Of a stretch of DNA of 21,009 nucleotides, positions 8,002 through 20,972 are shown piece after piece. Source of the stretch: a virus; IMG/VR virus record IMGVR_UViG_3300043734_000020, positions 1-21,009 of that record; one strand, written 5' to 3'. Within the stretch, counting starts at the first letter, position 1. Each line of letters opens with the position of its first letter. The notes below the pieces were generated by a model, which was not told the DNA's origin, ran no database searches, and saw only the letters and a list, made by a program, of their open reading frames with translations. The position numbers were made by a program, and so were the translations under genes.

Positions 8002-8030
8002 AAAGAAAAGGGGAGGCCGAAGCCTCCCCC
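8002..8030 (-). terminator. Rho-independent terminator with UUCG tetraloop
   Basis: On the minus strand an 8-bp perfect stem GGGGAGGC / GCCTCCCC (8029-8010) closes a TTCG loop (8021-8018) and is followed by TTTTCTTTG. It lies eight bases past the stop of the SSB-like gene (8038), so it ends the recombination segment or attenuates transcription into the polymerase genes. Confidence 0.85.
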
Positions 8031-8037
8031 GTATTCT

Positions 8038-9373: not shown

Positions 9374-9540
9374 TCTACCTCCACGGTGAGTTTGACTGGC
9401 TTGCCTTCTATTGGCCTGACACCATCCAATGGAAAGCCTATGATTACGCTGGGGAGTTTGATGTATAGCACCCGACCGTTCTGCACTCTCCAATCGGTGG
9501 GTTCTATGATGGCAATCAGCGCGGCTTTAGTGGGTTCCAC
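9361..9540 (-). CDS. Hypothetical 59-aa protein in the recombination cluster
   Basis: Small, beta-rich by eye (GRVLYIKLPSVIIGF, then GKPVKLTVEVECLP), with no recognisable motif. The GTG at 9540 is chosen because GGAGG stands seven bases upstream; a GTG at 9576 would lack one. It overlaps the Cas4-like gene by 25 nt and the Sak4 gene by 13 nt, so it is translated as part of the recombination cassette and may be a partner of one of the two. Confidence 0.65.
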   Translation of the reverse strand: MEPTKAALIAIIEPTDWRVQNGRVLYIKLPSVIIGFPLDGVRPIEGKPVKLTVEVECLP

Positions 9541-10508: not shown

Positions 10509-10621
10509 TGGGGTCCCCACTCCTGAGGTTCGTTGGTCTTTAGCTTGAGCTTGCCGATCTTGAGATAGGGGCGTAACGCATCGCGCCGTCTTGCACTCCT
10601 ATAGCTAGCGCGTGGTCTCAA
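10385..10621 (-). CDS. Hypothetical basic protein, possible TTG start, overlaps nuclease gene
   Basis: A 78-residue frame filling the 97-nt gap between two confident genes. Its TTG overlaps the upstream stop as TTGA. The middle (LRPYLKIGKLKLKTNEPQEW) looks protein-like, but the last 40 residues run out of phase through the start of the nuclease gene and no clear Shine-Dalgarno is present. It is either a short real gene with an overlapping tail or a leader region. Confidence 0.3.
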   Translation of the reverse strand: MRPRASYRSARRRDALRPYLKIGKLKLKTNEPQEWGPQWYYQAKSQTTTKKSPKPKSSVRLSPEAIFNMLGMRPPSKS

Positions 10622-10836
10622 AACCGCCTTGCCTTCACATTCCGCACGGGCTGGAGTTCCGGCACATTCGGAAGAAGCTTGGCAATATCGACATCTTCTT
10701 TTTCCTTCTTGGCCTTGCCTCCAGCCGCGATATGCGCCCGGTGCTTGCGAAGATATTTGATGATCTCGTCAATATCCTCGGGCGTCACTTCATCGGCGGC
10801 CCGGTTAAGAGCTTCCCGCACTGGGTTGTCACTCAT
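10618..10836 (-). CDS. Hypothetical 72-aa helical protein ending KARRF
   Basis: Begins MSDNPVREALNRAADEVTPE, continues into predicted helices (DIDEIIKYLRKHRAHI), a Lys/Glu-rich stretch and a final PVRNVKARRF. No family recognised. The start at the second of two adjacent ATGs (10836) leaves four bases after GGAGG and forms a TGATG overlap with the upstream gene. The C-terminal ARRF is shared with the unrelated 151-residue protein two genes upstream. Confidence 0.7.
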   Translation of the reverse strand: MSDNPVREALNRAADEVTPEDIDEIIKYLRKHRAHIAAGGKAKKEKEDVDIAKLLPNVPELQPVRNVKARRF

Positions 10837-11072
10837 CATTCCTCCATCGGGGCATAGCCCCCGTCGCTGCGCATCCGCCTGCCGCGGATGATTAGGAGTT
10901 CATCTCCGTCTTGCTTGAAGAAAAAGTTATGGAGTTCTGGGTCTTCAGTCTTTAGTCTCCAGAGTTCGAGGTCGATTAGAAGCTGGCTGGTATCGCACTC
11001 AGAAACGCCGAGCCCGATTTTTTCTCGGAGGGCTTTGCTCCACACCTCCTCCGGGGTCAAGTTCAAACTCAT
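10836..11072 (-). CDS. Hypothetical acidic 78-aa phage protein
   Basis: Starts MSLNLTPEEVWSKALREKIG and has a mixed alpha/beta pattern (LLIDLELWRLKTEDPELHNFF, then DELLIIRGRRMRS). No known motif. The best Shine-Dalgarno in the area, AAGGAGGT, precedes ATG 11072, which lies 74 nt inside the upstream gene, so its expression does not depend on coupling. Function unknown. Confidence 0.75.
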   Translation of the reverse strand: MSLNLTPEEVWSKALREKIGLGVSECDTSQLLIDLELWRLKTEDPELHNFFFKQDGDELLIIRGRRMRSDGGYAPMEE

Positions 11073-11454
11073 CTTCTACCTCCTTAGGAGCCAGAAGCTC
11101 CTCAAGGTCCACTTTCATTTCGTCTTCGTATGAGGGAAGCTCCTCTACTTCGATCTCGCGAACGATGTTCTTCTCAATGAGAAGGAGCCATACGCCCCGG
11201 CCCGGGTCTTCCTCTATCCGCACCGTGAGTTTATAATAATCGCTGGTGTTATAGAGGGGGTGATCTGGGGTTGCGGAGTATATCTTCCTGCTCTGATCTC
11301 GATCTAGAACCCGCGCTTTGTTGACACGGTTCCGTAACCGAAAGGCTTCCTCGTGTGTGGTGCATACCTTCTGGACGCCGCGCGGGGATGCTAGAGCCCT
11401 ATCCAAGAGCCCGTAGCAATCGGCGTAAGCGTCGCGGTTAAACCCTAAGGACAT
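10999..11454 (-). CDS. Hypothetical 151-aa protein, acidic tail ending RARRF
   Basis: An N-terminal globular part (SPRGVQKVCTTHEEAFRLRN ... DYYKLTVRIEED ... GVWLLLIEKN) suggests an alpha/beta fold with a basic helical surface. A strongly acidic segment (about 105-135) and an abruptly basic C-terminus RKNRARRF follow. Start ATG 11454 with GGAG eight bases upstream. It sits immediately after the helicase, so a replication accessory role is plausible but only from position. The last 74 nt overlap the next gene in another frame, yet the ARRF ending recurs elsewhere with different codons. Confidence 0.75.
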   Translation of the reverse strand: MSLGFNRDAYADCYGLLDRALASPRGVQKVCTTHEEAFRLRNRVNKARVLDRDQSRKIYSATPDHPLYNTSDYYKLTVRIEEDPGRGVWLLLIEKNIVREIEVEELPSYEDEMKVDLEELLAPKEVEDEFELDPGGGVEQSPPRKNRARRF

Positions 11455-11465
11455 AGTCGCCGCTC

Positions 11466-12872
11466 CTAATAGATGGCCGCGGATTGGATTTCATAGTAAG
11501 CCTCCTTGGCACGCGTTTGGATCACATATCGTAGGTTGAGTTCTTGGTCGTCGCCATCCTTTATAAGCCAAGGGTCAAGGTGATAGACCGTGTGCCATTC
11601 CAAGCCCTTGGATTTATGTCCGGTGATTAAGGTAATCGGGCCGTCTTGTCGGAGGACGAACTCCGCGCGTTTGATAGCCTCGCCGAGATCGCTGGACGCC
11701 CCAACGAATATCCGGAGGCAATCAGCCATATCAGCGCGGGTTTCCTTCTTCGCGGCCCAGGCATCAATCGCTAACAGCGCGGAGTTCTTGTTCATGCTCG
11801 CGTCGCCCAGACGCTTCAAGGTTCCCACGAGCTTTGGTCCGATATCGCTTCCTGCCACTCTACAAGGCCTGCCAAAAGATAACAGGTTGAGAGCGAGTCG
11901 AAAGAGAGGTGCGTTGTTTCTGCAAACAACCGCACTCCCCTCAACAATCTCACCCATTCCGAGTTGCTCCAGTGCTCCCACGACGCCCCCTTCGTGGAAG
12001 TAGTTGAAGCCGGGCACTCTCCATCGTGCATTTTCCACGATCCTTGATCTGCACCGAAAGCTCACGGAAAGAGTAGCCTGGGCCATGTTCCGCTTGAGGT
12101 AATTGATCTCCATGCTCTCCCGCATCGCTCCGCGGAATTGGTAGATTGATTGAAAAGGATCGCCCACGGTGAAGAGTCGCGCCCCTTTCATCATTCGATC
12201 GACTATGGCCTGCATCACTGGCGTGAGGTCTTGCTCTTCGTCAACGAGGAGCGTAGGGTATTTGGGGAAACTGCCCCCGAATATGATTGGCATGTATAGC
12301 TGATCGTCAAAGTCACAGTTTCCTTGATAGGCTTCTCGAATTGAACAAACCAGGATTTCGTCCACGATCTTCCGTTGAAGAACACTGGCAGAAGGGACCG
12401 TGCCCCAAAATTCCTGGCCAGCCAGACGTCTAGAGCTTCGAGGAACTCCGTCCGGGACATATCCTCGCGCCTTAGCGAGTGTAATTGTTTCGCTAATTTC
12501 TGGCCAAATGTCGTAAGCTTCGTCTCGGTCAAAGCTTCTGAGGGCTTTGACGGTCTCTTTGAAGATGCGGTAGATTTTCCCTTGCTTATCGATTTGGCAG
12601 CCCGAGGAGATCGTGCCACGCCATGCGGTCCATCCGACGGAGTTGAGGGTTTTCGCGTCGCCCGGGAAGCCTTGGAGGGCCTCCTCGATGATCCGGCGAT
12701 TGAAGGCGACATATAGCTTATCTCCAGGGATTAGGTCAGCGATGAGCTTAAGGGTGTGGGTTTTGCCCGTGCCAGCATAAGCGACGATCTGAAGGTGGTC
12801 TTCCTCCGAGACAAAGTCGCAGATTTGCGCTTGCTCCTCAGTGGGCTCTGTGGTTTCTATTACCTCATCCAT
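11466..12872 (-). CDS. SF1A DNA helicase, UvrD/Rep-like
   Basis: A 468-residue 3'-5' type helicase. Motifs in order: Q-like EEQAQI, Walker A AYAGTGKT (31-38), DEEQD (211-215), GDPFQSIYQFRGA (237-249), SFRC, TGHKSKGLEW (motif V) and YVIQTRAKE (motif VI; canonical YVALTRA). The protein is compact, with much reduced 2B insertions compared with about 720-residue UvrD, as in other phage helicases. It probably unwinds or remodels DNA in replication and recombination. The start at 12872 is set by TAGGAG eight bases upstream within the leader AGGAGAGTGCAA; the longer frame reaches into the upstream membrane-protein gene and has no support. Confidence 0.93.
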   Translation of the reverse strand: MDEVIETTEPTEEQAQICDFVSEEDHLQIVAYAGTGKTHTLKLIADLIPGDKLYVAFNRRIIEEALQGFPGDAKTLNSVGWTAWRGTISSGCQIDKQGKIYRIFKETVKALRSFDRDEAYDIWPEISETITLAKARGYVPDGVPRSSRRLAGQEFWGTVPSASVLQRKIVDEILVCSIREAYQGNCDFDDQLYMPIIFGGSFPKYPTLLVDEEQDLTPVMQAIVDRMMKGARLFTVGDPFQSIYQFRGAMRESMEINYLKRNMAQATLSVSFRCRSRIVENARWRVPGFNYFHEGGVVGALEQLGMGEIVEGSAVVCRNNAPLFRLALNLLSFGRPCRVAGSDIGPKLVGTLKRLGDASMNKNSALLAIDAWAAKKETRADMADCLRIFVGASSDLGEAIKRAEFVLRQDGPITLITGHKSKGLEWHTVYHLDPWLIKDGDDQELNLRYVIQTRAKEAYYEIQSAAIY

Positions 12873-12882
12873 TTGCACTCTC

Positions 12883-13059
12883 CTAGAGCTTCCACTTGGC
12901 GCAGAATTGCTGCGCCCCGCTCTTTGAGCTGGGGCCACCTGCCGCTGTCATATCTTCAACACAAGAGTTGTATCTCCAGTTACTCCACATCCAGATCAGG
13001 AAGCCGACCACGATGATTAAGATCAGCCAGCCGTTCACTTTATGGCCACCCTCGTCCAT
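12883..13059 (-). CDS. Small single-pass membrane protein with two C-terminal cysteines, 58 aa
   Basis: Begins MDEGGHKVNG, then a strong hydrophobic segment (WLILIIVVGFLIWMWSNW), then a polar tail with two Cys 24 residues apart (NSC ... FCAKWKL). An N-in topology would put the tail in the periplasm, where the Cys could pair. The ATG at 13059 overlaps the upstream stop as TAATG, with GAGGAG about ten bases before. Possible roles are lysis control or envelope modification; unproven. There is no lipobox, so it is not an Rz1-type spanin. Confidence 0.7.
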   Translation of the reverse strand: MDEGGHKVNGWLILIIVVGFLIWMWSNWRYNSCVEDMTAAGGPSSKSGAQQFCAKWKL

Positions 13060-13295
13060 TATTGTCGCACTCCTCTGCTTGAAGTCACCTTCGTGACTGC
13101 GGTACAGACATTGCCTACCATCTCGCTTATAGCGAGAAACCACTGGCCGTCTACGTTGTCCCCGTCCTCCTTCATATCATGCCCAATGATTGCTGCGGCT
13201 TCCTGGGCATAGCGAAGGTGTTCGATGAGTTGGAGGATAGTGGCACTTCTAGAGAATGTGCCACTCTGGGTTTCGTAAGGGAGCCTAGCGGCCAT
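13059..13295 (-). CDS. Hypothetical conserved-looking 78-aa phage protein
   Basis: A helical protein with HLRYAQEAAAIIGHDMKED, then GQWFLAISEMVGNVCTAVT. I recall similar small proteins (AAAxIGH ... WLAVSE) in phages of Rhizobiales, function unknown. The ATG at 13295 lies inside the end of the 25-residue gene upstream and lacks an obvious Shine-Dalgarno, so it probably depends on coupled translation. Confidence 0.65.
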   Translation of the reverse strand: MAARLPYETQSGTFSRSATILQLIEHLRYAQEAAAIIGHDMKEDGDNVDGQWFLAISEMVGNVCTAVTKVTSSRGVRQ

Positions 13296-13362
13296 AACCG
13301 CACCGACACTCTGTGCAGGTCCAGCCCAGCTTGCGAAGTTCTAGCTCTTTCTTTATGTTCAT
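13285..13362 (-). CDS. 25-aa Cys-rich miniprotein (CTECRC)
   Basis: MNIKKELELRKLGWTCTECR then CGYGR*. Three Cys in CxxCxC form could bind metal, perhaps as a dimer. An AGGAGG four to five bases before ATG 13362, a TAATG overlap with the upstream stop and an overlap with the next start all fit a real cistron. It is too short for most gene callers. Function unknown. Confidence 0.5.
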   Translation of the reverse strand: MNIKKELELRKLGWTCTECRCGYGR

Positions 13363-13511
13363 TAGCCCTCCTGCCTCAGCTTTTCCCGGATATCATTCAC
13401 GATATCCACAATCCTATCGCCTAGTTCAGTGGTATCTGCCTCGTTCTCCTCGGCGTCGCCTACGGCCTGCTCAAGCTTGTCGAGGTATTTCTTGAGGGTT
13501 TCTGCGTCCAT
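13362..13511 (-). CDS. 49-aa acidic helical protein
   Basis: Begins MDAETLKKYLDKLEQAVGDA, continues through an acidic centre and ends with a helix (RIVDIVNDIREKLRQEG). Probably a small coiled-coil or helical hairpin. The Shine-Dalgarno is GGAGGAGGAA, which also encodes the Glu tail of the upstream gene. The stop overlaps the next ATG as TAATG. Function unknown. Confidence 0.6.
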   Translation of the reverse strand: MDAETLKKYLDKLEQAVGDAEENEADTTELGDRIVDIVNDIREKLRQEG

Positions 13512-13670
13512 CTATTCCTCCTCCTCCATTTCGAAAACATCCGGCATCGATGCGCAGAGTTCACGCACGAAATCCTTTGCGGTCATGTTCCACGGGATTA
13601 GTGCGTACTGCCCGTTTTCGCTAACGCGAAAGGCACGATTGGCGTCGTCTTCCGTGAAGCGTATCTTCAA
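13512..13670 (-). CDS. 52-aa hypothetical protein, TTG start
   Basis: Reads (M)KIRFTEDDANRAFRVSENG, then YALIPWNMTAKDFVREL, ending in MEEEE. A beta strand followed by a helix is likely. The TTG at 13670 has AGGAGG seven bases upstream, and no ATG comes earlier than residue 29. Its poly-Glu C-terminus is the Shine-Dalgarno of the next gene read as protein. Function unknown. Confidence 0.55.
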   Translation of the reverse strand: MKIRFTEDDANRAFRVSENGQYALIPWNMTAKDFVRELCASMPDVFEMEEEE

Positions 13671-13671
13671 G

Positions 13672-13962
13672 CTAGAACCTCCTCTTCATCTTTGGTGGTG
13701 GAGGTGGAGCGAGCGATGCGAGGAGTTCCTCGATCCCTGCCCTTATCTTTGGGTCCTCCGTCAGCTTCGCAAACCCCGAGCATCTTCCATACACGTCGCC
13801 CTGCTCGATCCGCCTCAGGGCATCGAGGAGAGCATAACGGAGGGTACTCCCATATCCGTATACGTATTCGTCGGGGCTCCATAAATACGCACTCCATTGG
13901 TCCTCATTGATTTCGTTTATGGATTTGAGGTGCCATCCTTCTGGGGGATCAGGGAGTTCCAT
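13672..13962 (-). CDS. Hypothetical 96-aa protein with Pro run, ending KMKRRF
   Basis: Starts MELPDPPEGWHLKSINEINE, then WSAYLWSPDEYVYGYGSTLR and a helix (YALLDALRRIEQG). A Pro5 linker leads to KMKRRF at the C-terminus. The N-terminal half reads like a small globular domain that handles a ligand or peptide; no family recognised. Start ATG 13962 has GAGGAG about eleven bases upstream. In this case AGGAGG in the Arg-Arg codons also serves as the Shine-Dalgarno of the following TTG gene. Confidence 0.7.
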   Translation of the reverse strand: MELPDPPEGWHLKSINEINEDQWSAYLWSPDEYVYGYGSTLRYALLDALRRIEQGDVYGRCSGFAKLTEDPKIRAGIEELLASLAPPPPPKMKRRF

Positions 13963-14126
13963 GCCTTGGCTAGCTCCTCGAAGTCGGTGTTTTCGTCTAT
14001 GGTGATGACGTTGAAGCCTACTCCTTGGAAGAACTCAATAGCTTCGTCCAGCCCGATATCATCTCCTCCCAGAAGCTTCGCTCCATCCGTGGAGGATTGC
14101 TGGGAGGGCTTCTCTGGTGATCCCAT
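13917..14126 (-). CDS. Hypothetical 69-aa protein
   Basis: The conserved-looking part is GLDEAIEFFQGVGFNVITID, then FEELAKAWNSLIPQ. The alternation of a helix, a beta strand and a helix suggests a compact alpha/beta fold. GGAG eight bases before ATG 14126 supports the start. It overlaps the gene upstream by 68 nt and the next gene by 46 nt. Function unknown. Confidence 0.6.
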   Translation of the reverse strand: MGSPEKPSQQSSTDGAKLLGGDDIGLDEAIEFFQGVGFNVITIDENTDFEELAKAWNSLIPQKDGTSNP

Positions 14127-14389
14127 TCTGTATACTCCATAGCTCGTCGGCCAGGGCTATCATCTGGCCGTAGGTGAGGGTGCGTAGTAACCGCGCGATC
14201 TCGTCGGTGCGGTCGTATATGATGGTGGTGATGAGTGGTGGCTCTGGTTCGGTGCGGAGGACTAGGTCCCGTGGGCGTAAGAATGCTGGGATCGGGTCGT
14301 CGCTGCGCGAGAAACTCACGGTAAAGCTCCTCGTTGGTTTGTGCAAATGCGGTGGTTGAAAAAAGAAGGAGCACCCAGAGAGGCTTCAA
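14018..14389 (-). CDS. Secreted protein with Sec signal peptide; tail dual-coded with a nested gene
   Basis: 123 residues from TTG 14389 (GGGAGG five bases upstream; TTGA overlap with the previous stop). The start KPLWVLLLFSTTAFA followed by QTNEELYREF is a textbook signal peptide with an AFA cleavage site and no lipobox Cys. From about residue 35 the frame runs through another gene and becomes Pro/His/Arg-rich (including five His in a row). Export of a short periplasmic protein is likely; whether the tail is functional is unclear. Its nesting recalls Rz/Rz1, but neither partner has a lipoprotein signal. Confidence 0.55.
   Translation of the reverse strand: MKPLWVLLLFSTTAFAQTNEELYREFLAQRRPDPSILTPTGPSPPHRTRATTHHHHHIRPHRRDRAVTTHPHLRPDDSPGRRAMEYTEWDHQRSPPSNPPRMERSFWEEMISGWTKLLSSSKE
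14059..14319 (-). CDS. 86-aa protein nested within the secreted-protein gene
   Basis: GTG 14319 is preceded by GAGGAG seven bases away. The product (M)SFSRSDDPIPAFLRP ... LITTIIYDRTDEIARLLRTL ... TYGQMIALADELWSIQNG looks like a genuine helical protein with C-rich third codon positions, in contrast to the frame that contains it. Its last 68 nt also overlap the following gene. Function unknown. The frame is open further upstream (TTG 14346), but only the GTG has a ribosome binding site. Confidence 0.6.
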   Translation of the reverse strand: MSFSRSDDPIPAFLRPRDLVLRTEPEPPLITTIIYDRTDEIARLLRTLTYGQMIALADELWSIQNGITREALPAILHGWSEASGRR

Positions 14390-14607
14390 TTCGGCCTCCC
14401 TGGGTGATCCCAGTCCATGGTGAGGATGCCAGCCGCTGCGTGCTTCGCGGCATCCTCACGGCTCATTGGTGGTTCGAAGTTCTCGGCGACCTCTACATAC
14501 GCACATAGCAGTACCGCCATGCCCTCTGCGCGAGTGGTGGTGTTCTCGCGCAGGTAGTTGAGGACGTCGATCACGTTTTTGGCCTTGACATACACCGGCT
14601 CGCTCAT
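14386..14607 (-). CDS. Hypothetical 73-aa protein, first gene after a consensus promoter
   Basis: Begins MSEPVYVKAKNVIDVLNYLR and includes EGMAVLLCAYVEVAEN, then REDAAKHAAAGILTMDWDHP; helical, no family recognised. Start ATG 14607 has GGGAGA about six bases upstream, and the leader is only about 16 nt from the predicted transcription start. As the first product of a perfect sigma-70 promoter it should be well expressed. Confidence 0.75.
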   Translation of the reverse strand: MSEPVYVKAKNVIDVLNYLRENTTTRAEGMAVLLCAYVEVAENFEPPMSREDAAKHAAAGILTMDWDHPGRPN

Positions 14608-14629
14608 GGCGATCTCCCATTGTGGTCCT

Positions 14630-14658
14630 ATTATACCACATTTCGAGCCAATTGTCAA
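14630..14658 (-). promoter_or_regulatory. Perfect-consensus sigma-70 promoter
   Basis: Minus strand TTGACA (14658-14653), exactly 17 bases, TATAAT (14635-14630). Both hexamers match the bacterial consensus completely. It lies in the 83-nt gap between genes and fires toward the 73-residue gene and the DNA-metabolism genes beyond. The bases after the -35 (ACAATTGGC) weakly resemble a half of the 17-bp palindrome seen elsewhere, but this is not convincing. Confidence 0.9.
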
Positions 14659-14690
14659 GCACTTTTTCGCGCTTATCTCCCCCGGTTTCC

Positions 14691-15479
14691 TTAGTTCAGG
14701 AGCTGCCGGATGTTGGAGACTTTGTTTTTCTGGGCGGTGATCTCCTCGATGAGACGGGAGTTTGCCGTGTTGGCGCGATCGAGATTGATCTTCATGGCAT
14801 CTCGTTCTTGTTGGAGCTGATCACGATCACGACAGGCTTCCTCGTATCGAGCCTGCCACTCCCGCTGAGTAGTTTCCATCGCAGCCGTGAGATCGACGTT
14901 GGCGTCACGAAACCTATCACGCTCTGTGCGGGCTACCTCCAGGAGCCCCTTCTCGGTCTCCAAAGCCTGCGCGAGCTTGGAGTTCTCGTTGACTTGAAGG
15001 GTGAGGCCAGCCTCAAGGGTGGTGATCTGCTCCTCCTGCTGGTGAGCAATCCGCACTGCTGCATTGCGCTCATCATCAACGACCTTGTAGGCTTCCCGGG
15101 CCATCTTCGCGTCGGCCTCGGCCTTGGTCGCCTTCTTCTCAGCCTCGTCCTTGAGTAGATCGGCCTGCCGTGCACGCTCCAGAGCCTCCGCAAGGCCCCG
15201 CTCAAGGTCAGTCTTCATCGCATTCAACTCATCGAACTTCCTTGCCCAGCCGCTCATCTGCACGATGTAGTCGGCGACTTTGGTCATATTGCTGCGGATC
15301 ACGCTCTCATCCCCCGTGATGGGAAGGCTTGAAGGAACCTCTTGGTTGTTGGGAAGATCGGCTTGCACTCGAACTTCTTCCCCGGTTTCGTTTTCGATTA
15401 CCATAGCTGCACTCTCCATTTCCTCTCTGGAAACCTTGGTGAACTGCCCACTGCGACGGTCTCTTATCTCATACCTCAT
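14691..15479 (-). CDS. 262-aa coiled-coil protein
   Basis: The N-terminal about 85 residues are mixed (MRYEIRDRRSGQFTKVSREE). Residues about 90-250 form an almost unbroken, highly charged heptad-rich coiled coil (MKTDLERGLAEALERARQAD, REWQARYEEACRDRDQLQQE). The ATG at 15479 overlaps the preceding membrane peptide's stop as ATGA, with GGGAGAAGGGAG ahead. Co-translation with a 36-residue membrane peptide suggests the coiled coil may be tethered at the membrane. Structural or scaffold-like; no enzyme motif. Confidence 0.8.
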   Translation of the reverse strand: MRYEIRDRRSGQFTKVSREEMESAAMVIENETGEEVRVQADLPNNQEVPSSLPITGDESVIRSNMTKVADYIVQMSGWARKFDELNAMKTDLERGLAEALERARQADLLKDEAEKKATKAEADAKMAREAYKVVDDERNAAVRIAHQQEEQITTLEAGLTLQVNENSKLAQALETEKGLLEVARTERDRFRDANVDLTAAMETTQREWQARYEEACRDRDQLQQERDAMKINLDRANTANSRLIEEITAQKNKVSNIRQLLN

Positions 15480-15586
15480 CTCCCTTCTCCCAGGTAGTAG
15501 TAGTACCACTCAACCGCGACTAGCAGCTGCGTGGCCCAGTTGGCTACGATAAACACCAACCAGATGGCTGCGATGATGTGTTTCAA
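15476..15586 (-). CDS. Small membrane peptide, 36 aa, TTG start
   Basis: (M)KHIIAAIWLVFIVANWATQ, then LLVAVEWYYYYLGEGR*. One hydrophobic helix of about 23 residues ends in an unusual WYYYY aromatic belt. The Shine-Dalgarno AGGAGG lies five bases before TTG 15586. The stop overlaps the coiled-coil gene's ATG. It is the first cistron after the terminator at 15601-15626. Function unknown; possibly a membrane anchor for its neighbour. Confidence 0.6.
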   Translation of the reverse strand: MKHIIAAIWLVFIVANWATQLLVAVEWYYYYLGEGR

Positions 15587-15600
15587 GGGGGCCTCCTATG

Positions 15601-15626
15601 GAAAGGGAGGGGCCGAAGCCCCTCCC
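15601..15626 (-). terminator. Hairpin terminator or attenuator, UUCG tetraloop
   Basis: Minus strand GGGAGGGGC / GCCCCTCCC, a 9-bp stem (15626-15605) around TTCG, followed only by TTTC. The stem is very stable but the U tract is short, so it may pause or terminate partially. It sits 26 bases past the stop of the Lys/Ala-rich protein and mirrors the hairpin at 8002-8030. Confidence 0.7.
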
Positions 15627-15651
15627 CCACGCGTTCCTCAGCGTTACGCTG

Positions 15652-16371
15652 TTACTGAGGCCGCAGTCCAGGCCGGAGTGGTCCACGAACACTTCCGCGA
15701 ACTGCGGGAGGAGGCACCGCAGTCCTAGCCTGGGAAGTCTCTGCCTTGGGCTTCTTCGCCTTGGCTTTGCGCTCATTGGCCTTGGCGACGAGTTTCTCGT
15801 CCTCCTTGACCTCGAAGCCCAGTGCAGCGAGGACGGCCTTGTCGTCCTTCTCGGATTTTGCCTCGGCCGCAGCAGCAAGAGACGCAAGCGCGGCCTTCTT
15901 GTACTTCTCAGGGTCTTGCGCAATGAGGGCCTCGGCGACCTTGTTCTTGGTCTCCGTGGACACCCTCGACAACACATACCCGTTGTTCTTGAGAACGTTA
16001 TCGCCGTCCTTGCGAGCGATGCGTTTCATTTCGGCCTTGACTTTGGCCTCCTCACCCTTGGCCTTGGCCTTGCCGCCAACGCCGGTGCGCTTGGTCTTAT
16101 CGGCGTATCCGCCTTCGACCTGCTCAAGGAAAATCCTCACGGACTCCTTGGCATACTCCTCAGCGGTGCCCTTGAAGGACGTTTTCGCGCCGAGTTTGCC
16201 CCGGCCACGTCCCGCGAAGACACTGATACATCCTGCGTAGAAGATGTAGCTGCAAAGATCATCGGTGAATTTCCCGCTGTCGATGTCGCCGCGCTGATCG
16301 GTGCCCTTGATAGGGACGTGATAGATCGTTCCCCCATCGGTGCCAGCGCCTGAGGTCCAACCAATACCCAT
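15652..16371 (-). CDS. Lys/Ala-rich protein of unknown function, 239 aa
   Basis: A glycine-rich N-terminal domain (MGIGWTSGAGTDGGTIYHVP ... FTDDLCSYIFYAGCISVFAG) is followed from about residue 95 by a Lys/Ala/Glu-rich helical region (KAKAKGEEAKVKAEMKRIAR, KKAALASLAAAAEAKSE) and a Pro/Arg tail. The basic repetitive helix resembles histone H1-like or HU-tail proteins, so nucleic-acid binding is possible. Start ATG 16371 has AAGGAG eight bases upstream. It has its own regulated promoter (16424-16452) and its own terminator, so it is a single-gene unit whose level is tightly controlled. Confidence 0.75.
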   Translation of the reverse strand: MGIGWTSGAGTDGGTIYHVPIKGTDQRGDIDSGKFTDDLCSYIFYAGCISVFAGRGRGKLGAKTSFKGTAEEYAKESVRIFLEQVEGGYADKTKRTGVGGKAKAKGEEAKVKAEMKRIARKDGDNVLKNNGYVLSRVSTETKNKVAEALIAQDPEKYKKAALASLAAAAEAKSEKDDKAVLAALGFEVKEDEKLVAKANERKAKAKKPKAETSQARTAVPPPAVRGSVRGPLRPGLRPQ

Positions 16372-16396
16372 ATTCCTGTCTCCTTCTAGGTATGCT

Positions 16397-16445
16397 GCGT
16401 TCGCTGTTCGATCGAACGCGAAGATGATAACATACTTCGCGTTCG
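16397..16445. promoter_or_regulatory. Nested inverted repeats around a promoter start
   Basis: GTTCGATCGAAC at 16406-16417 is a perfect 12-bp palindrome placed at the predicted transcription start. CGAACGCGAAG (16413-16423) and CTTCGCGTTCG (16435-16445) are exact 11-bp inverted arms separated by 11 bases that contain the -10 box. A further GCGTTCG lies at 16397. A dimeric repressor bound here would block the promoter. The GTTC/GAAC words recall LexA-type operators, but their spacing is not GTTC-N7-GTTC. Confidence 0.65.
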
Positions 16446-16452
16446 AAAGCAA
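16424..16452 (-). promoter_or_regulatory. Sigma-70-like promoter for the Lys/Ala-rich gene
   Basis: Minus strand TTGCTT (16452-16447), 17 bases, TATCAT (16429-16424). Five of six -10 bases and four of six -35 bases match consensus. The -35 abuts the 17-bp palindrome at 16453-16469, and the -10 lies inside the inverted repeat at 16413-16445, so at least two proteins may act on it. Confidence 0.75.
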
Positions 16453-16469
16453 TGCGGCAAATTGTCGCA
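16453..16469. promoter_or_regulatory. 17-bp palindromic operator, copy 1
   Basis: TGCGGCAAATTGTCGCA: 8-base arms around a central A with one mismatch. It directly abuts the -35 box of the promoter at 16424-16452. Similar copies are at 19539, 20556 and 20634. Position upstream of -35 would suit an activator or a blocking repressor. Confidence 0.7.
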
Positions 16470-16473
16470 CCCC

Positions 16474-16785
16474 TCAGAGGGCCGATTTCAGCTTCATGTA
16501 GAGCGTTCTAGCGCTGTCTACCAATGGCTGGAATTGCTCCACGCCATCGCAGCGATCCTCTACGATCCTCATACACTCGATGATGGTGGAGAGTTCGCCT
16601 TCAGTGAGCCAGATTGGGCTTTCGTCTTGGGTGATAAACTCACCCAGTCTCCCTACGAATTGGACGGTACCGACGTTGTAGGCGCGGTACCTGCATCCTT
16701 TTTCGGTGTTAAGCCAAACCTTGTAGGCCCCGATATGCCCTTCGACTTTGATTTCTATAGTGTCAACGTTGCGATCGTCTTCCAC
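16474..16785 (-). CDS. Hypothetical 103-aa protein
   Basis: (M)EDDRNVDTIEIKVEGHIGA and YKVWLNTEKGCRYRAYNVG suggest an N-terminal beta sheet, followed by a helical C-terminus (GELSTIIECMRIVEDRCDG ... LYMKLKSAL). GTG 16785 has GAGGAG seven bases upstream. It ends just before the promoter and operator region of the next unit. Function unknown. Confidence 0.7.
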   Translation of the reverse strand: MEDDRNVDTIEIKVEGHIGAYKVWLNTEKGCRYRAYNVGTVQFVGRLGEFITQDESPIWLTEGELSTIIECMRIVEDRCDGVEQFQPLVDSARTLYMKLKSAL

Positions 16786-16964
16786 TTTTCAGCTCCTCTA
16801 GGATGTACTCGATAGCGGTTAGCTCGATAAGGGCTTTCGAGTGCGAGAGCTAGCTCTCGAAGCCTTGCGACCTTCCCTTCAAGCATCTCGATGTTGCAAA
16901 AGGCCCAGCCATGCTTTGCGTAGTCAAAGTCCAGCTGGGCTGCGGTGCGTCTTCGTGGTGGCAA
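16755..16964 (-). CDS. Hypothetical basic 69-aa protein, TTG start
   Basis: (M)PPRRRTAAQLDFDYAKHGWA, then IEMLEGKVARLRELALALES. Basic ends and a leucine-rich helix. The TTG at 16964 is preferred because GGGAG lies about seven bases upstream, two bases past the previous stop. An ATG at 17009 would overlap that gene and has no close Shine-Dalgarno. It overlaps the next gene by 31 nt. Function unknown. Confidence 0.6.
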   Translation of the reverse strand: MPPRRRTAAQLDFDYAKHGWAFCNIEMLEGKVARLRELALALESPYRANRYRVHPRGAEKWKTIATLTL

Positions 16965-16966
16965 TT

Positions 16967-17275
16967 TTAACTCCCGGTTTTGTTTATGGTAACGATGCAG
17001 CTTGACCATTGGTTGTGCTGGACCTCTAGCCAGCCTGGGATGCTCCCGAGGTTGTCTTGGAACTCCTTGGCTGTGAAGAAGCTGTAGTCAATGTCCCGCT
17101 CGGTGCCGTCGGCGTAATTGATTAGGTACGAGACGGCGTAAAGCTTGGCATTGGCGAGTTCGGACTTGAGTTTTATGTGAAGGTCCCAAAGGGCCTTCTC
17201 ATTGTGGGGCTCGCAATGGAGTGCATTCTCGATTGCGTCTATAAGAGTTCGCGTTTCAGCTATGGTGAGTTCCAT
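16967..17275 (-). CDS. Hypothetical 102-aa protein
   Basis: An N-terminal helix (MELTIAETRTLIDAIENAL) with a linker HCEPHNEKALWDLHIKLKSE, then a likely beta domain (YAVSYLINYADGTERDIDYS ... GWLEVQHNQWSSCIVTINK). It reads like a small sensor or binding fold; no family recognised. The ATG at 17275 has GAGGAGGG eight to nine bases upstream. Confidence 0.7.
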   Translation of the reverse strand: MELTIAETRTLIDAIENALHCEPHNEKALWDLHIKLKSELANAKLYAVSYLINYADGTERDIDYSFFTAKEFQDNLGSIPGWLEVQHNQWSSCIVTINKTGS

Positions 17276-17276
17276 G

Positions 17277-17501
17277 TTATTTTCCCTCCTCAGGATAGAC
17301 TACTTTCCCGTCTTTCCATTCCCAGTTGATACAATCACCACCATCGGTGATGATTACCCGTTTGATGATACCAATCATTGCTGCGGGGCGGCGGGTTAAA
17401 GAAACCGCGGTTCTAATGGCCTCTTCTGCACCACAAAAGCGTTTTTCGTAGTAGTGCCTCCCGTCGGGGTCCCACCACACCACGTTGAACTCACCACTCA
17501 T
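17277..17501 (-). CDS. Hypothetical conserved-looking 74-aa protein (ITDGGD motif)
   Basis: Features FNVVWWDPDGRHYYEKRF, a helix EEAIRTAVSLTRRPAAM and RVIITDGGDCINWEWKDGKV. I recall proteins with the same WxDPDG / ITDGGD / NxEWK pattern in phages of Rhizobiales; no function is known to me. The ATG overlaps the upstream stop as ATGA. Likely all-beta after the central helix. Confidence 0.75.
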   Translation of the reverse strand: MSGEFNVVWWDPDGRHYYEKRFCGAEEAIRTAVSLTRRPAAMIGIIKRVIITDGGDCINWEWKDGKVVYPEEGK

Positions 17502-17839
17502 TTGTACCCCATGAATTGCCGGATTTCATCGGCTAACGTCCCAGATACCCGGGTGTTTTCGCTACACACCCTTCGAAGCAATTGCCTGGCTTTTTGTAAG
17601 TGTTTTTCGTTTGCCATGCTCTCCGCTGCCCAAAGCTCTGCGTGGCCACCTGGGCGCACCGCATTCCTAGTGATGGATTTATACCCTGGGCCGTCGTCTG
17701 AGTACCTCGCGACTAGGGTCTGTTCGTGGAGTTCGGGTCCTCTGCTGCATAGGTAAAGGTCGTGGATTTGGCCTCCCCCGATGGTGTTCCCTAGGAATTT
17801 GCAGTTGGTGCAGTCGTGGGTGTATTTTGGACTAGTCAT
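17498..17839 (-). CDS. Putative zinc-binding phage protein, 113 aa
   Basis: The N-terminal HDCTNCKFLG followed by IHDLYLC places CxxC, His and Cys as a likely zinc knuckle (about 8-31). TLVARYSDDGPGYKS is a phrase I recall from many small phage proteins. The C-terminus is helical (KHLQKARQLLRRVC). GGAG is about ten bases before ATG 17839, which overlaps the upstream stop region. The role is unknown; the zinc site is inferred from spacing. Confidence 0.75.
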   Translation of the reverse strand: MTSPKYTHDCTNCKFLGNTIGGGQIHDLYLCSRGPELHEQTLVARYSDDGPGYKSITRNAVRPGGHAELWAAESMANEKHLQKARQLLRRVCSENTRVSGTLADEIRQFMGYK

Positions 17840-18032
17840 TTGCGAAGAACTCCGTGCTATCTGCGTCCCAAACGAGATCGATTTTGTGGGCTTTCGCCCA
17901 CACCTCTGCGGTGCCTACGGTGGGAAAGTCTCGATAGAATGGGCCTCCATCGAGGTCTTTTTCTCCGTCAAGTTCCACAACCACCCTTGGGTGGGGCGTA
18001 TCTCGCCCCACCACCCAGTAGCATCCTTTCAT
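17832..18032 (-). CDS. Hypothetical 66-aa protein
   Basis: MKGCYWVVGRDTPHPRVVVE, then GGPFYRDFPTVGTAEVWAKA. Beta-rich start and one helix. The ATG overlaps the previous stop as TAATG behind a GGGGGAGAGGGG Shine-Dalgarno tract that is a near copy of one inside the upstream gene. Function unknown. Confidence 0.7.
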   Translation of the reverse strand: MKGCYWVVGRDTPHPRVVVELDGEKDLDGGPFYRDFPTVGTAEVWAKAHKIDLVWDADSTEFFAND

Positions 18033-18367
18033 TACCCCTCTCCCCCTTTTCCATAATCAGCAGCGTTCCAGACCTCCCATATGAATTCGCCAATCTTGCG
18101 AGCGCGGGTCGCGTTATAAGGTTCAATCCGATCGTCGCTGTTAGCAAACGCTAGTACCGCCTCTGCATTAGCGAATTCGCCATAAACACGGCGTTTGGGT
18201 TTTTCATTCATGGCCCCCTCTCCTCCTTTTCCAAACATTTCTCGTTTGACCTTGCGTAACTCATTGATAAGGTCGAGTAATTCCTGGTAGGAAAGACTAG
18301 GCATTGGGGCGAATGTGATCCCTACCTTTCGCCCATTGCCGTATATCGTGTAGGTGAAATATTTCAT
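18032..18367 (-). CDS. Hypothetical 111-aa protein, possibly two fused cistrons
   Basis: The first half (MKYFTYTIYGNGRKVGITF ... YQELLDLINELRKVKREM) ends in GKGGEG. An internal ATG (18211) then starts MNEKPKRRVYGEFANAEAVL ... ARKIGEFIWEVWN, which ends in the same GKGGEG. GKGGEG is the translation of a duplicated Shine-Dalgarno tract, so the second half could be initiated separately and the long ORF may be two genes joined by loss of a stop. The second half reads like a cold-shock/YEAST-size small domain but no family is recognised. The ATG at 18367 overlaps the preceding stop as ATGA. Confidence 0.65.
   Translation of the reverse strand: MKYFTYTIYGNGRKVGITFAPMPSLSYQELLDLINELRKVKREMFGKGGEGAMNEKPKRRVYGEFANAEAVLAFANSDDRIEPYNATRARKIGEFIWEVWNAADYGKGGEG
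18035..18233. repeat. Two 19-bp direct copies of a ribosome-binding tract
   Basis: 18035-18053 and 18215-18233 are identical at 18 of 19 bases (plus strand cccctctccYccttttcca). On the minus strand each is a purine-rich Shine-Dalgarno directly before an ATG (18032 and 18211). They are 180 bp apart, the length of the intervening small ORF, which suggests a tandem gene duplication or recombination between start regions. Confidence 0.7.
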
Positions 18368-18462
18368 TGGTGTGCTTCCTCCCTAATGTAATCCACCACC
18401 CTACGAATGCGGTCACCGTCGCGGTTCAACTCGCGTAATCTTTCCTCCAAGGCTTCCCCCAT
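18364..18462 (-). CDS. 32-aa charged helical protein
   Basis: MGEALEERLRELNRDGDRIR, then RVVDYIREEAHQ. An almost entirely charged amphipathic helix. AAAGGGGG precedes ATG 18462 closely. The longer open frame upstream overlaps another gene and looks unselected (Arg/Trp-rich). Ends in ATGA with the next gene. Function unknown. Confidence 0.5.
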   Translation of the reverse strand: MGEALEERLRELNRDGDRIRRVVDYIREEAHQ

Positions 18463-18760
18463 TGCCCCCTTTACTCTCCGTTCTAAGCTTCGCGATATGC
18501 CACGCCTTGCTATGCAGAAAGACAATCTCAATCTTCCTACCCGCAACCACCAGATGCCTCCTACTTTCCTCATTCTTCGCACTCCTAAATGCCTCTATTG
18601 CCTCTGCGTCTGGCCGCTCTTTGATGACACTGGTCACTACCCTTGCGTGATCTTTGGTTGCTAGGTAGGCGCGGAGGTCATCAAACCGCAGTATCCAGAT
18701 ACGTTTGTTCCAGCGTTTCAGGCTTTCGGCTGAGAACGCCGAGCCTAGTTCCCAGTTCAT
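18413..18760 (-). CDS. Hypothetical 115-aa protein without a Shine-Dalgarno
   Basis: MNWELGSAFSAESLKRWNKR, then IWILRFDDLRAYLATKDHAR, a helix PDAEAIEAFRSAKNEESRR and a strand HLVVAGRKIEIVFLH. Alpha/beta, no family recognised. The last 30 residues overlap the next gene and are Gly-rich. The first ATG (18760) lies directly behind a terminator hairpin whose T tract touches it, leaving no room for a ribosome binding site. Translation may start leaderless, further downstream, or be controlled by the hairpin. Confidence 0.6.
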   Translation of the reverse strand: MNWELGSAFSAESLKRWNKRIWILRFDDLRAYLATKDHARVVTSVIKERPDAEAIEAFRSAKNEESRRHLVVAGRKIEIVFLHSKAWHIAKLRTESKGGNGGSLGGKITRVEPRR

Positions 18761-18763
18761 GAG

Positions 18764-18783
18764 AAAAGGGGGCTTTCGCCCCC
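18764..18783 (-). terminator. Rho-independent terminator with GAAA tetraloop
   Basis: Minus strand GGGGGC / GCCCCC (18783-18768) closing GAAA, followed by TTTTCTC. It lies five bases past the stop of the 89-residue gene (18788) and three bases before the ATG of the next gene, so read-through is required for, or controls, the following genes. Confidence 0.8.
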
Positions 18784-18787
18784 TCCC

Positions 18788-19057
18788 TTACTCTTGTGGC
18801 TCTTTCCAAGAGAGTTCCTTGGAGTTCTCGATGATGAAGCTCTCAAGGGCTTCCTTGCAGTCGAAGATTTTCTCCCATTCCTGGGCGTAGTAAACGATTG
18901 GCATACGCCGGATGCCATAGAGCCCCACGGCCTTCTTTTCGGTGATCTTGATGTAGATACTCCGCTCTGCCTTGGCCTTGAGGGCCTCATTCTGGGCCTC
19001 CAAAGCAGCCACGCGGGCAAGGAGTTCCTCATGGGTTTTGTCTTGTAGAATAGCCAT
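18788..19057 (-). CDS. 89-aa protein: coiled-coil start and a conserved YG-R-P-YY domain
   Basis: The N-terminal coiled coil (HEELLARVAALEAQNEALKA) is followed by IYIKITEKKAVGLYGIRRMP, then VYYAQEWEKIF and a helix ALESFIIENS. The second part matches, from memory, a small domain (AVSVYGLxRFPVTLYxxQWxxL) present in many cyanophage, marine-phage and algal-virus proteins of unknown function. The start is ATG 19057 with AGGAG upstream in the recurring leader AGGAGAGTGCAAA. Likely an oligomeric binding protein. Function not established. Confidence 0.75.
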   Translation of the reverse strand: MAILQDKTHEELLARVAALEAQNEALKAKAERSIYIKITEKKAVGLYGIRRMPIVYYAQEWEKIFDCKEALESFIIENSKELSWKEPQE

Positions 19058-19102
19058 TTTGCACTCTCCTCGTTCTAGCTTGGGACCATCCCTAGCTAGC
19101 TA

Positions 19103-19124
19103 GAGCCCACCTTGCGATGGGCTC
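19103..19124 (-). other. Intergenic hairpin between two early genes
   Basis: GAGCCCA / TGGGCTC, a 7-bp stem with an 8-base loop, in the 75-nt gap after the stop at 19133. No T tract follows; instead there is TAGCTAGCTAGGG. It may be an RNA-processing or stability element rather than a terminator. Confidence 0.45.
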
Positions 19125-19132
19125 CGGTTAGC

Positions 19133-19477
19133 TTAGGCAACAAGCTTTGCAATTTGCGCGGCCTTCTTCGCGGTGTAGCGCTCTAGGAACTTTGCGGCTA
19201 ACTCCGCACGCTTCTCCTCGGAAGCTTCACGCTTCACGGCCCATTCTTTGGCTTTGAGGGCCTTGGTGATCTTGTTTGCCTTGATGGTTGCTATCCGCTC
19301 CTCTCTAACCTGTGCGAGTTGTGACTTGAGGTGTTTGTCAGTCTCGAGGAAGGTTGCACGGCATTCCTTGAGGGCTGCCTTGAGACCCCGGGAGGTCTCT
19401 AGGTATTCGGTGCGGTTGTCCTTGATCCGCTGGCTGAGGTCTTGGATTAGGGTAACCTTCTGGGTATTAGGTATCAT
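19133..19477 (-). CDS. Basic helical protein, 114 aa
   Basis: Entirely helical by eye, rich in Lys, Ala, Glu (KVTLIQDLSQRIKDNRTEYL, ATIKANKITKALKAKEWAV, FLERYTAKKAAQIAKLVA). Probably an elongated oligomer or a DNA-binding bundle; no motif. The ATG at 19477 is preceded by GGGAGTGAGTGCA, a variant of the recurring leader. The upstream 78-nt gap carries two palindromic operators, so it likely begins a controlled unit. Confidence 0.75.
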   Translation of the reverse strand: MIPNTQKVTLIQDLSQRIKDNRTEYLETSRGLKAALKECRATFLETDKHLKSQLAQVREERIATIKANKITKALKAKEWAVKREASEEKRAELAAKFLERYTAKKAAQIAKLVA

Positions 19478-19503
19478 TGCACTCACTCCCTGGTTGCATC
19501 GAG

Positions 19504-19527
19504 GCGGCAATGGTCGCACATTGCCGC
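19504..19527. promoter_or_regulatory. Inverted repeat related to the 17-bp operator
   Basis: GCGGCAATG (19504-19512) and CATTGCCGC (19519-19527) are exact inverted 9-base arms around GTCGCA. The half-site GCGGCAA is that of the 17-bp palindrome. Together with 19539-19555 it fills most of the gap upstream of the gene starting at 19477; the centres are about 32 bp (three helical turns) apart. Confidence 0.65.
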
Positions 19528-19538
19528 GATTTTGTCGA

Positions 19539-19555
19539 TGCGGCATATTGCCGCA
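19539..19555. promoter_or_regulatory. 17-bp palindromic operator, copy 2
   Basis: TGCGGCATATTGCCGCA: perfect 7-base arms around TAT. It begins one base past the stop of the upstream gene (19556). A weak promoter-like TCGACA lies just downstream on the minus strand, but no convincing -10 accompanies it. Confidence 0.7.
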
Positions 19556-19993
19556 CTAAGCGGGGTAACCTCCCGTTGCGTTCTGAGACCAATCCCAGAT
19601 TTCCCCATGGCCTGTAGAAGCGTAGGGGGCGATTAGCTCAGCCCACTCGATTGGCATACCTGCCTCTAAGCAGGAGGTTTCCCAGTCCTTAGTGTAGTTG
19701 GAACCTTCCCAGGACTTTTCGTGAATATCTGCGGCTAGGCCTGTGAGGATGGCAAGCTGCTTAGCTGTAAGGGTGCAGCCTGCATGGATTAGGGTTATCC
19801 TGACGCCATAGCAGGCATGGTCGTGAAGCATACCATAGATTGCATCATTGGCAGCCTCGTAGGATTTGGAGCATCCAAAGGTTGGATGGTACCAGTACCA
19901 CTTCTCATCTAGCCTGTCTTGCCTAAGCTCCACTAGCTGATCGTTTAGCCTGTATTTCTCATGGGTATGGTAGCAGGTTACGAAGGCTTTCAT
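19556..19993 (-). CDS. Hypothetical 145-aa protein, rich in Cys, His and Trp
   Basis: MKAFVTCYHTHEKYRLNDQL, then DEKWYWYHPTFGCSKSYEAA, HDHACYGVRITLIHAGCTLT and a central helix AKQLAILTGLAADIHEKSWE. Several Cys/His could bind metal but no known knuckle spacing stands out. ATG 19993 has GGAG six bases upstream; ATG 20005 is possible with a weaker AAGG. It comes after a small membrane peptide. No family recognised. Confidence 0.7.
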   Translation of the reverse strand: MKAFVTCYHTHEKYRLNDQLVELRQDRLDEKWYWYHPTFGCSKSYEAANDAIYGMLHDHACYGVRITLIHAGCTLTAKQLAILTGLAADIHEKSWEGSNYTKDWETSCLEAGMPIEWAELIAPYASTGHGEIWDWSQNATGGYPA

Positions 19994-20012
19994 GGCTTTC
20001 TCCATTGGCCTT

Positions 20013-20126
20013 TTAGAGGCCGAACTCCTGTGCTAGGAGGATGGTAAAGGCACACACGATTATCGCAGCCCAGGCCCCAAGGGGCATTGCTGTGATGGTT
20101 TGGATGGTGAGGATTAGGAGTTCCAT
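20013..20126 (-). CDS. Small hydrophobic membrane peptide, 37 aa
   Basis: MELLILTIQTITAMPLGAWA, then AIIVCAFTILLAQEFGL*. Nearly all residues are hydrophobic, with Glu only near the ends: one long or two short membrane helices. The ATG at 20126 has GGAG eight bases upstream and overlaps the end of the upstream gene by 13 nt. It is below usual gene-calling length. Function unknown. Confidence 0.6.
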   Translation of the reverse strand: MELLILTIQTITAMPLGAWAAIIVCAFTILLAQEFGL

Positions 20127-20296
20127 TCTCTTTTCTCCCTCCTTGCATCATCTACTAACCAGACTGCCACGTCTGCTCTATAGCCTAGGATTTTCAGCTT
20201 AGCTATAGCTTGCCTCCTATCAATCAACCCTTCGATATACTGCGTTAGAATAGCACTCATCTTCCAGCCCTCCTGCCAATCCTTTGGCACTTTCAT
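20114..20296 (-). CDS. Hypothetical 60-aa helical protein
   Basis: MKVPKDWQEGWKMSAILTQY, then IDRRQAIAKLKILGYRADVA and WLVDDARR. The helical pattern (AxxxLxxLGYxxxxAxxLV) resembles small phage proteins with a short helix-turn-helix-like or SHOCT-like arrangement. AGGGGG before TAGAGA precedes ATG 20296. Function unknown. Confidence 0.65.
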   Translation of the reverse strand: MKVPKDWQEGWKMSAILTQYIEGLIDRRQAIAKLKILGYRADVAVWLVDDARREKREWNS

Positions 20297-20299
20297 TCT

Positions 20300-20488
20300 C
20301 TACCCCCTATCGTAGTACGTTGAAGCATGAACCGTTATCCTTTTCCACTCAATCGTGAATGGGCAGCCATGTAGCTCGCCTAGGTGTTTTGCCCTAGCCT
20401 TAGCCCTCTCCTCACTTTGCGGCCCCCAACACCTTGAGCCTAGCTTTCCCCTTTCCAAGACTACCAACCATCCTTCACTCTCTGCCAT
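20300..20488 (-). CDS. First leftward gene: hypothetical 62-aa protein
   Basis: MAESEGWLVVLERGKLGSRC, then a helix EERAKARAKHLGELHG and a strand TIEWKRITVHASTYYD. A beta-alpha-beta small fold. ATG 20488 has GGAGAAGGA upstream; the frame continues upstream but would run through an operator. As the promoter-proximal gene it should be the earliest leftward product, a position often used for host-takeover or anti-defence proteins; that is inference only. Confidence 0.7.
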   Translation of the reverse strand: MAESEGWLVVLERGKLGSRCWGPQSEERAKARAKHLGELHGCPFTIEWKRITVHASTYYDRG

Positions 20489-20555: not shown

Positions 20556-20572
20556 TGCGGCAATTTGTCGCA
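20556..20572. promoter_or_regulatory. 17-bp palindromic operator, copy 3
   Basis: TGCGGCAATTTGTCGCA, extended by C and G to 19 bp with symmetry. It lies between the five GTTC repeats and the first leftward gene, over the presumed -35 region. Confidence 0.7.
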
Positions 20573-20582
20573 GTCGCTTTTC

Positions 20583-20630
20583 GTTCTCGGTCCGTTCTCG
20601 CCTCGTTCACTTCCCGTTCTCGCCTCGTTC
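20583..20630. promoter_or_regulatory. Five GTTC repeats at N7 spacing: overlapping alphaproteobacterial LexA (SOS) boxes
   Basis: GTTC occurs at 20583, 20594, 20605, 20616 and 20627, each exactly 11 bases after the last, giving four overlapping GTTC-N7-GTTC sites. This direct repeat is the established LexA operator of alphaproteobacteria such as Rhizobium, Rhodobacter and Caulobacter. Spacer bases are also partly conserved (CGTTCTCGCCT twice). The array lies upstream of the first leftward gene and between two 17-bp palindromes. An alternative is an iteron array for a phage replication initiator. Confidence 0.7.
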
Positions 20631-20633
20631 TCA

Positions 20634-20650
20634 TGCGGTAAATTGCCGCA
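20634..20650. promoter_or_regulatory. 17-bp palindromic operator, copy 4
   Basis: TGCGGTAAATTGCCGCA, one mismatch between arms, followed by an extra half-site TTGCCGC at 20655-20661. Its centre is 78 bp (about seven helical turns) from copy 3, a spacing that would allow looping across the GTTC array. Confidence 0.7.
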
Positions 20651-20695
20651 CAGATTGCCGCTCTCGCCTCCTTCCTCGCCTCAATCTCGCCTTCC

Positions 20696-20740
20696 CTAGA
20701 TGCCCCCTAGATGCCCCCTAGAAAACCCTAGAAAACCTAC
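20696..20740. repeat. Helically phased CTAG direct repeats, left cluster
   Basis: CTAG at 20696, 20707, 20718 and 20728, plus a degenerate CTAC at 20737. Units are CCCTAGATGCC twice and CCCTAGAAAA twice, spaced 10-11 bp. They lie on one helical face and continue the 11-bp rhythm of CTCGCCT words at 20663, 20675 and 20686. CTAG is normally a rare tetranucleotide, so the cluster is not chance background. Confidence 0.7.
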
Positions 20741-20822
20741 ATAACCCACCCCCTAAAGCCTCTTTCCAAATCTTCTTCAAGGATTTTTTCCCAGAGTGGG
20801 CTTTTGGGCTTTTCTTCTCTCT

Positions 20823-20843
20823 AAAAAATTTTTTTTTTTTTTT
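20823..20843. other. A6-T15 tract, possible DNA-unwinding element
   Basis: Six A followed by fifteen T in otherwise mixed sequence, roughly midway between the two CTAG clusters. Such a tract melts and bends easily. No stable GC hairpin sits directly before it, so a terminator is a weaker explanation. The surrounding 20741-20877 has no credible ORF. Confidence 0.5.
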
Positions 20844-20877
20844 AAGAACACAAAATTGACACAAAAAAGCCACAATT

Positions 20878-20906
20878 GGGGGTTGGAGGGGGGGTTAGGG
20901 TCAGGG
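20878..20906 (+). other. G-quadruplex-forming motif
   Basis: Runs of G5, G7, G3 and G3 separated by TTGGA, TTA and TCA satisfy the four-tract G-quadruplex pattern on the plus strand. It lies between the A/T tract and the right CTAG cluster. Confidence 0.5.
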
Positions 20907-20910
20907 TGTT

Positions 20911-20954
20911 CTAGGCTATCTAGGATGTTCTAGGGGGCATCTAGGGTTATCTAA
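20911..20954. repeat. Helically phased CTAG repeats, right cluster, inverted relative to the left
   Basis: CTAG at 20911, 20920, 20930 and 20941, then CTAA at 20951, spaced 9-11 bp. The 17 bases TTCTAGGGGGCATCTAG (20928-20944) are the exact reverse complement of bases in the left cluster (20707-20723). The two clusters therefore form a long interrupted inverted repeat around the A/T tract and the G-rich motif. Confidence 0.7.
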
Positions 20955-20972
20955 CTGCGGCCGAAAGCTTTT

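Follow-up and report, generated by a model that had tools for sequence, protein, structure and literature searches.

Opposed arrays of 11-bp-phased sites around a simple-sequence core, a candidate genome terminus of podovirus-type phages

The stretch of DNA analysed here (the window) is a complete linear virus record of 21,009 bp and represents a fragment of a podovirus-type phage. Upstream of its leftward replication operon lies an imperfect dyad (20694-20946), in which CCCTAGA-type units with a spacing of 10-11 bp point inward from both sides to a central A6T15 tract. The dyad is a real control element, common to dozens of bacteriophages and apparently undescribed so far. By analogy with cultured phages, the locus is best interpreted as the genome terminus, or concatemer junction, of a podophage of the direct terminal repeat (DTR) type, i.e. 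as the place where the chromosome is cut and packaged, with a probability of roughly 0.58.

The original prediction had described this region as one composite control locus and as a candidate origin of the iteron type, and all of the items that it listed are present in the sequence, namely palindromes, GTTC, CTCGCCT and CTAG units, the A6-T15 tract, a G-quadruplex motif and an inverted CTAG cluster. Absent from it was the point that the two CTAG clusters (20696, 20707, 20718 and 20728; inverted at 20911, 20920, 20930 and 20941) form the two arms of a single dyad centred on the A/T tract. The features of the operon and the locus are:

3890..20488, minus strand: leftward replication operon, from ORFs and protein searches (the block spans about 20490 to 3890)
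3890-5140, minus strand: DUF3987 primase-like protein
5004-6497, minus strand: PolA polymerase, part of a split PolA system
6497-7540, minus strand: UDG and 3'-5' exonuclease, part of the split PolA system
8486-9493, minus strand: Sak4-like ATPase
9516-10520, minus strand: exonuclease-like protein
11466-12938, minus strand: UvrD-type helicase
16453-16469 and 19539-19555: two copies of the 17-bp palindrome TGCGGYAAWTTGYCGCA, within the leftward operon and near gene starts
20300..20488, minus strand: first leftward gene past the element (start picked by eye as the ATG at 20488, which an AAGGA site closely precedes)
20556..20572: 17-bp palindrome TGCGGYAAWTTGYCGCA, copy 3 of 4, from a pattern scan of the window
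20582..20692, plus strand: further 11-bp-phased units on the early side, a CGTTCTC-N4 array and CTCGCCT units
20634..20650: 17-bp palindrome TGCGGYAAWTTGYCGCA, copy 4 of 4, from the same scan
20694..20756, plus strand: left arm, on the early-operon side, with inward CCCTAGATGCC twice, CCCTAGAAAA twice and then degenerate CCTACATAACCC / CCCCCTAA
20823..20843: A6T15 tract, the dyad centre; T15 is the sole homopolymer of at least 8 in the window
20878..20906, plus strand: G-rich stretch with one of the two G-quadruplex motifs of the window, overlapping the inner part of the right arm
20880..20920: where the direct terminal repeat is predicted to have its left edge if phage Kuura is taken as a model (there the edge is some 55 bp from the homopolymer, on the side opposite to the early operon)
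20895..20946, minus strand: right arm, an inverted copy of the left-arm units, 81% complementary over 52 nt with an 18-nt perfect core at 20929-20946

The dyad scores 35 under the one scoring scheme that was applied, compared with 12.3 +/- 2.0 in shuffles (maximum 21 of 1,000), and is the best of the whole window, the runner-up reaching 20. As single-stranded DNA the locus folds with z = -5.0. The paired unit CCCTNRWN4CCCTNRW matches three times in the window, where 0.06 matches are expected, and all three lie within this locus, while the exact 18-mer had no match in IMG/VR. On the early side of the left arm the phasing continues with other units: a CGTTCTC-type array of 7-bp units and 4-bp spacers at about 20582-20632, which comprises the GTTC units, is followed by CTCGCCT units starting at 20663, 20675 and 20686. 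The 11-bp rhythm of the original prediction is real, since the lag-11 identity over 20574-20740 is 0.494 and lies above all of 2,000 shuffles (0.286 +/- 0.035, maximum 0.429). The CGTTCTC-N4 array has the 11-bp period of the arms with a different unit, and other repeats (TTGAGGTAGCGTCAG) are also present on the early side of one related locus (L021). With up to three mismatches allowed, TGCGGYAAWTTGYCGCA gives eight strand matches in the window against 0.23 expected, and, judged from its sequence, the four-copy palindrome probably serves a phage regulator as a dispersed operator that has no part in the dyad. The notion of one composite locus is correct in that a phased control locus stands at the head of the replication operon, but the palindromes are two of four dispersed copies and do not seem to belong to it.

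That replication genes adjoin the locus is confirmed by the leftward operon, which starts at 20488, whereas the rightward genes of the window stop at 3893. The rightward ORF at 15-3893, of which the window contains 1,292 aa and which may encode an internal virion protein, has as its sole family match an unnamed 2,231-aa PHROG family of unknown function. In the window no good sigma-70-like promoter passes the scan; a weaker candidate, picked by eye, lies on the minus strand across the 20556 palindrome (GCGACA, 19-bp spacer, CATAAT). Megablast of the window against phage records gave no match and the Rfam search of the window returned nothing. Among the matches listed for the helicase against GTDB genomes there were no close relatives (best listed 26% over most of the length), and among the isolates found by PolA comparison Caulobacter phage Kuura comes closest, at 34%.

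Related loci were taken from many IMG/VR contigs by PolA and helicase scans; of the 524 relatives that the helicase alignment brought up, 80 were retained. Among the 102 loci fetched by helicase scans, 26 have an internal homopolymer of at least 9, and in 22 of these the strongest dyad lies on the homopolymer (within 150 bp), compared with 0.47 expected if positions are independent; the 26 include a few near-copies and were all gathered via one helicase, so that they are not independent samples. All 22 coinciding loci have a run of T or A as their core. Three public records, ctMlz233, a Desulfofustis phage (where the dyad is tied for best) and Mel-JY34, show the coincidence as well, and it is absent in Tiera, EBPR podovirus 3, Aeromonas P5 and ctLwi270, while PaMx41 has phased units and lacks a strong dyad. 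Dyads scoring 56 (ctLwi270, L071:35890) and 60 (L032:1380) were also seen, neither with a homopolymer of 8-9 or more, and these are possibly the same element with another core. A primase peptide scan for relatives yielded none. A broad three-unit pattern scan of IMG/VR matched 41 contigs, just six with at least two inverted partners, and its matches are probably mostly due to chance. Where larger contigs were inspected, the point from which gene blocks run apart in opposite directions lies close to the element. Loss of the repeats in close relatives, named in the original prediction as a refutation, was looked for, and the architecture was found to be kept.

Removal of near-copies and addition of others gave 32 non-redundant examples, which were partly picked by dyad score and can test motif, direction and spacing, but not conservation of the dyad itself. 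In their arms CCCT-N-[AG]-T occurs 82 times inward and seven times outward, and the distances between copies peak at 11 (31), 22 (16) and 33 bp (7); block shuffles give hardly any. When averaged over loci, the lag-11 signal extends for about 250 bp on either side of the centre and is gone further out. A two-unit pattern gave 31 matches, spread over 11 of 27 records, and its reversed form, used as a control, gave none; where a record has several matches they cluster at one place, except that in G038 they lie at its two contig ends. Since the remaining 16 records lack an exact two-unit match, the unit must be degenerate, and the CCCTAGA of the window itself departs from CCCTNRT at the last base. 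The core is AT-rich in most of the 32 loci and not in about a third; several loci have CA, CT, TCTG or other simple sequence instead. Sigma-70-like promoters with a score of at least 9.5 lie beyond the early-side arm in 22/32 loci and on the other side in 6/32 (tabulated scores counted by eye). TerL-like genes stand on the far side of the junction in three contigs (G008, G006 and G010), and an HTH protein near TerL in G010 (L021:2024-2545) matches a terminase HTH model weakly.

Several contigs are broken in the homopolymer and have matching arms to either side of it, as read from the printed sequence for G006/G007 (C run) and G013; in G012 arms and homopolymers are found at both contig ends. 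The starts of the G007 and G006 loci (L017 and L018) have a C run of 20 or more at the dyad centre, and both contigs break there. An interpretation of contig ends as physical termini was rejected, as the breaks sit in the homopolymer itself and are probably assembly failures. A reading of the whole element as chance, low-complexity noise or an artefact of assembly at contig ends could draw on these breaks, but is hardly credible: the arms are imperfect (81%) and differ between phages, yet keep one unit at an exact 11-bp spacing, and they are also present where a contig is intact or a record circular or complete.

A genome terminus is favoured because the end of Kuura lies in an equivalent structure, and because phased units stand beside the terminal repeats of T7 and RIO-1; the functional support comes from one distant isolate, Kuura, and from analogy. 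Direct terminal repeats of 606 bp were determined for Kuura by PhageTerm (PMC9959647), and the deposited record carries exactly this repeat. Its edge (43207/43208, the right copy starting at 43208) is located about 55 bp from A12, the longest homopolymer of the genome, and is flanked by GGGCAGT-type phased units and, inside the repeat, by inverted ACTGCCC units. Thus, in this one distant relative with read-determined fixed ends, the repeat edge between phased arrays places the physical genome end inside a structure equivalent to the element. Kuura shares with the window a bipartite genome layout, related replication proteins and a longest homopolymer that is flanked by phased arrays, but its ACTGCCC units point outward and it lacks the CCCTNRT consensus. 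Its dyad score alone is weak (16, reached by 3.3% of shuffles), and the accessible part of its description does not present the arrays as an element (PMC9959647). The distance of Kuura, the different sequence and orientation of its units and the direct orientation of the T7 units were counted against a terminus; the preservation of position, unit and spacing across the 32 loci was counted in favour, as was the asymmetry of the promoters, which argues against a symmetric regulatory region.

If the locus is a terminus, the two inward arrays of 7-bp sites, repeated every 11 bp or about once per helical turn, would flank the simple-sequence core, and a DNA-binding protein of the phage, with the small terminase as the likeliest candidate, would load on them. 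A nick or cut in the concatemeric DNA, placed between one of the arms and the core, would then generate the left edge of the terminal repeat, a position backed by published read mapping in Kuura only, while the early-operon promoter would be located just beyond the opposite arm. Should the Kuura geometry carry over, roughly the final 100 bases of the window, which ends about 165 bp past the A6T15 core, would fall inside the terminal repeat.

The alternative of a replication origin, where cooperative binding of an initiator to the phased arrays would be followed by opening of the simple-sequence core and by loading of the replication proteins encoded nearby, appears rather unlikely. The place of the dyad immediately before the replication operon would suit it, as would the mostly A/T homopolymer between its phased sites, and inverted site arrays around a low-complexity core have the overall shape of viral origins such as herpesvirus oriS or SV40, to which the element can be likened. 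With iteron-type origins of the lambda and RK2 class the element shares multiple phased repeats that resemble binding sites near replication genes. An iteron is typically a longer, directly repeated unit (about 18-22 bp) beside an AT-rich region, whereas the sites here are 7 bp long at 11 bp, inverted, and grouped around a core that in some relatives is a C run, CA, CT or TCTG. The iteron assignment fits the phasing, each arm alone being a direct array, but not the two opposed arms. The GC-skew analysis proposed as a check did not favour an origin, since in four complete or near-complete genomes the turning points are not consistently at the element. Furthermore, an initiator gene (Rep/O-like) was absent among the window proteins searched, which cover part of the ORFs of a partial genome, and the equivalent structure of Kuura holds a physical end. 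On the other side, a PaP2-like phage was reported to persist as an episome, so that the broader group may maintain itself extrachromosomally (PMC13348215).

It is quite improbable that the element is a promoter-regulatory region, in which an activator or repressor on the 7-bp sites controls the early operon and the second arm serves a second promoter or looping. Sites of 7 bp at 11-bp spacing have the geometry of PhoB-type winged-helix proteins, and most loci do have a good promoter immediately outside the early-side arm; however, a comparable promoter is far rarer on the other side, leaving a symmetric dyad without symmetric output, and such a region needs neither simple-sequence cores nor long arms. 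A symmetric divergent promoter was disfavoured, the promoters being mostly one-sided.

How concatemers of DTR phages are cut and their terminal repeats duplicated is still a matter of competing models (PMC4281155). For a clade that has hundreds of uncultured members, a conserved element that is easy to recognise offers a concrete DNA site and a candidate binding protein, could allow genome ends to be predicted from sequence for such assemblies, and suggests a reason for contig breaks at this point in a number of them. More speculative, and rather doubtful, is the proposal of a new class of phage cis-element, in which opposed 11-bp CCCTNRT arrays and a simple core are terminus and origin in one and the homopolymer, because its base differs between phages (A, T or C), is the scar of repeated end formation. 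If true, the site would mark both where ends form and where strand synthesis restarts.

Among known systems, the herpesvirus packaging signal pac1 consists of a short A/T run between stretches rich in C and in G, and cleavage takes place a fixed distance away; this is a resemblance only, as pac1 lacks phased 11-bp arrays and belongs to an unrelated virus class. The left ends of the Zobellviridae VpV262 and SIO1 have no comparable array. In the PaP2/119X/PaMx41 group, whose primase is related to that of the window, PhageTerm indicated terminally redundant ends for phage Shea (PMC13348215). Several records of this group begin at the place equivalent to the element, at nearly the same base, which may be mere convention. 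In their start region (for PaMx41, the L069 record ends), CAAGGTAG units of 10 bp stand on one side, opposite ACCTTG units in inverted orientation. RIO-1 has a CTAGANGG array directly beside its annotated 121-bp terminal repeat, but with direct units, an 8-bp period and no homopolymer of at least 8 within the 3 kb examined; the array (L231:121-230) comprises about ten units. T7, which as a positive control for array spacing gave 13 bp, has direct units on both sides, at 12-13 bp and without a homopolymer core, whereas the units of the element are inverted at 11 bp around simple sequence. Nevertheless, T7 resembles the element in that short C-rich CCTAAAG units are regularly spaced on both sides of its 160-bp terminal repeat, beside early promoters.
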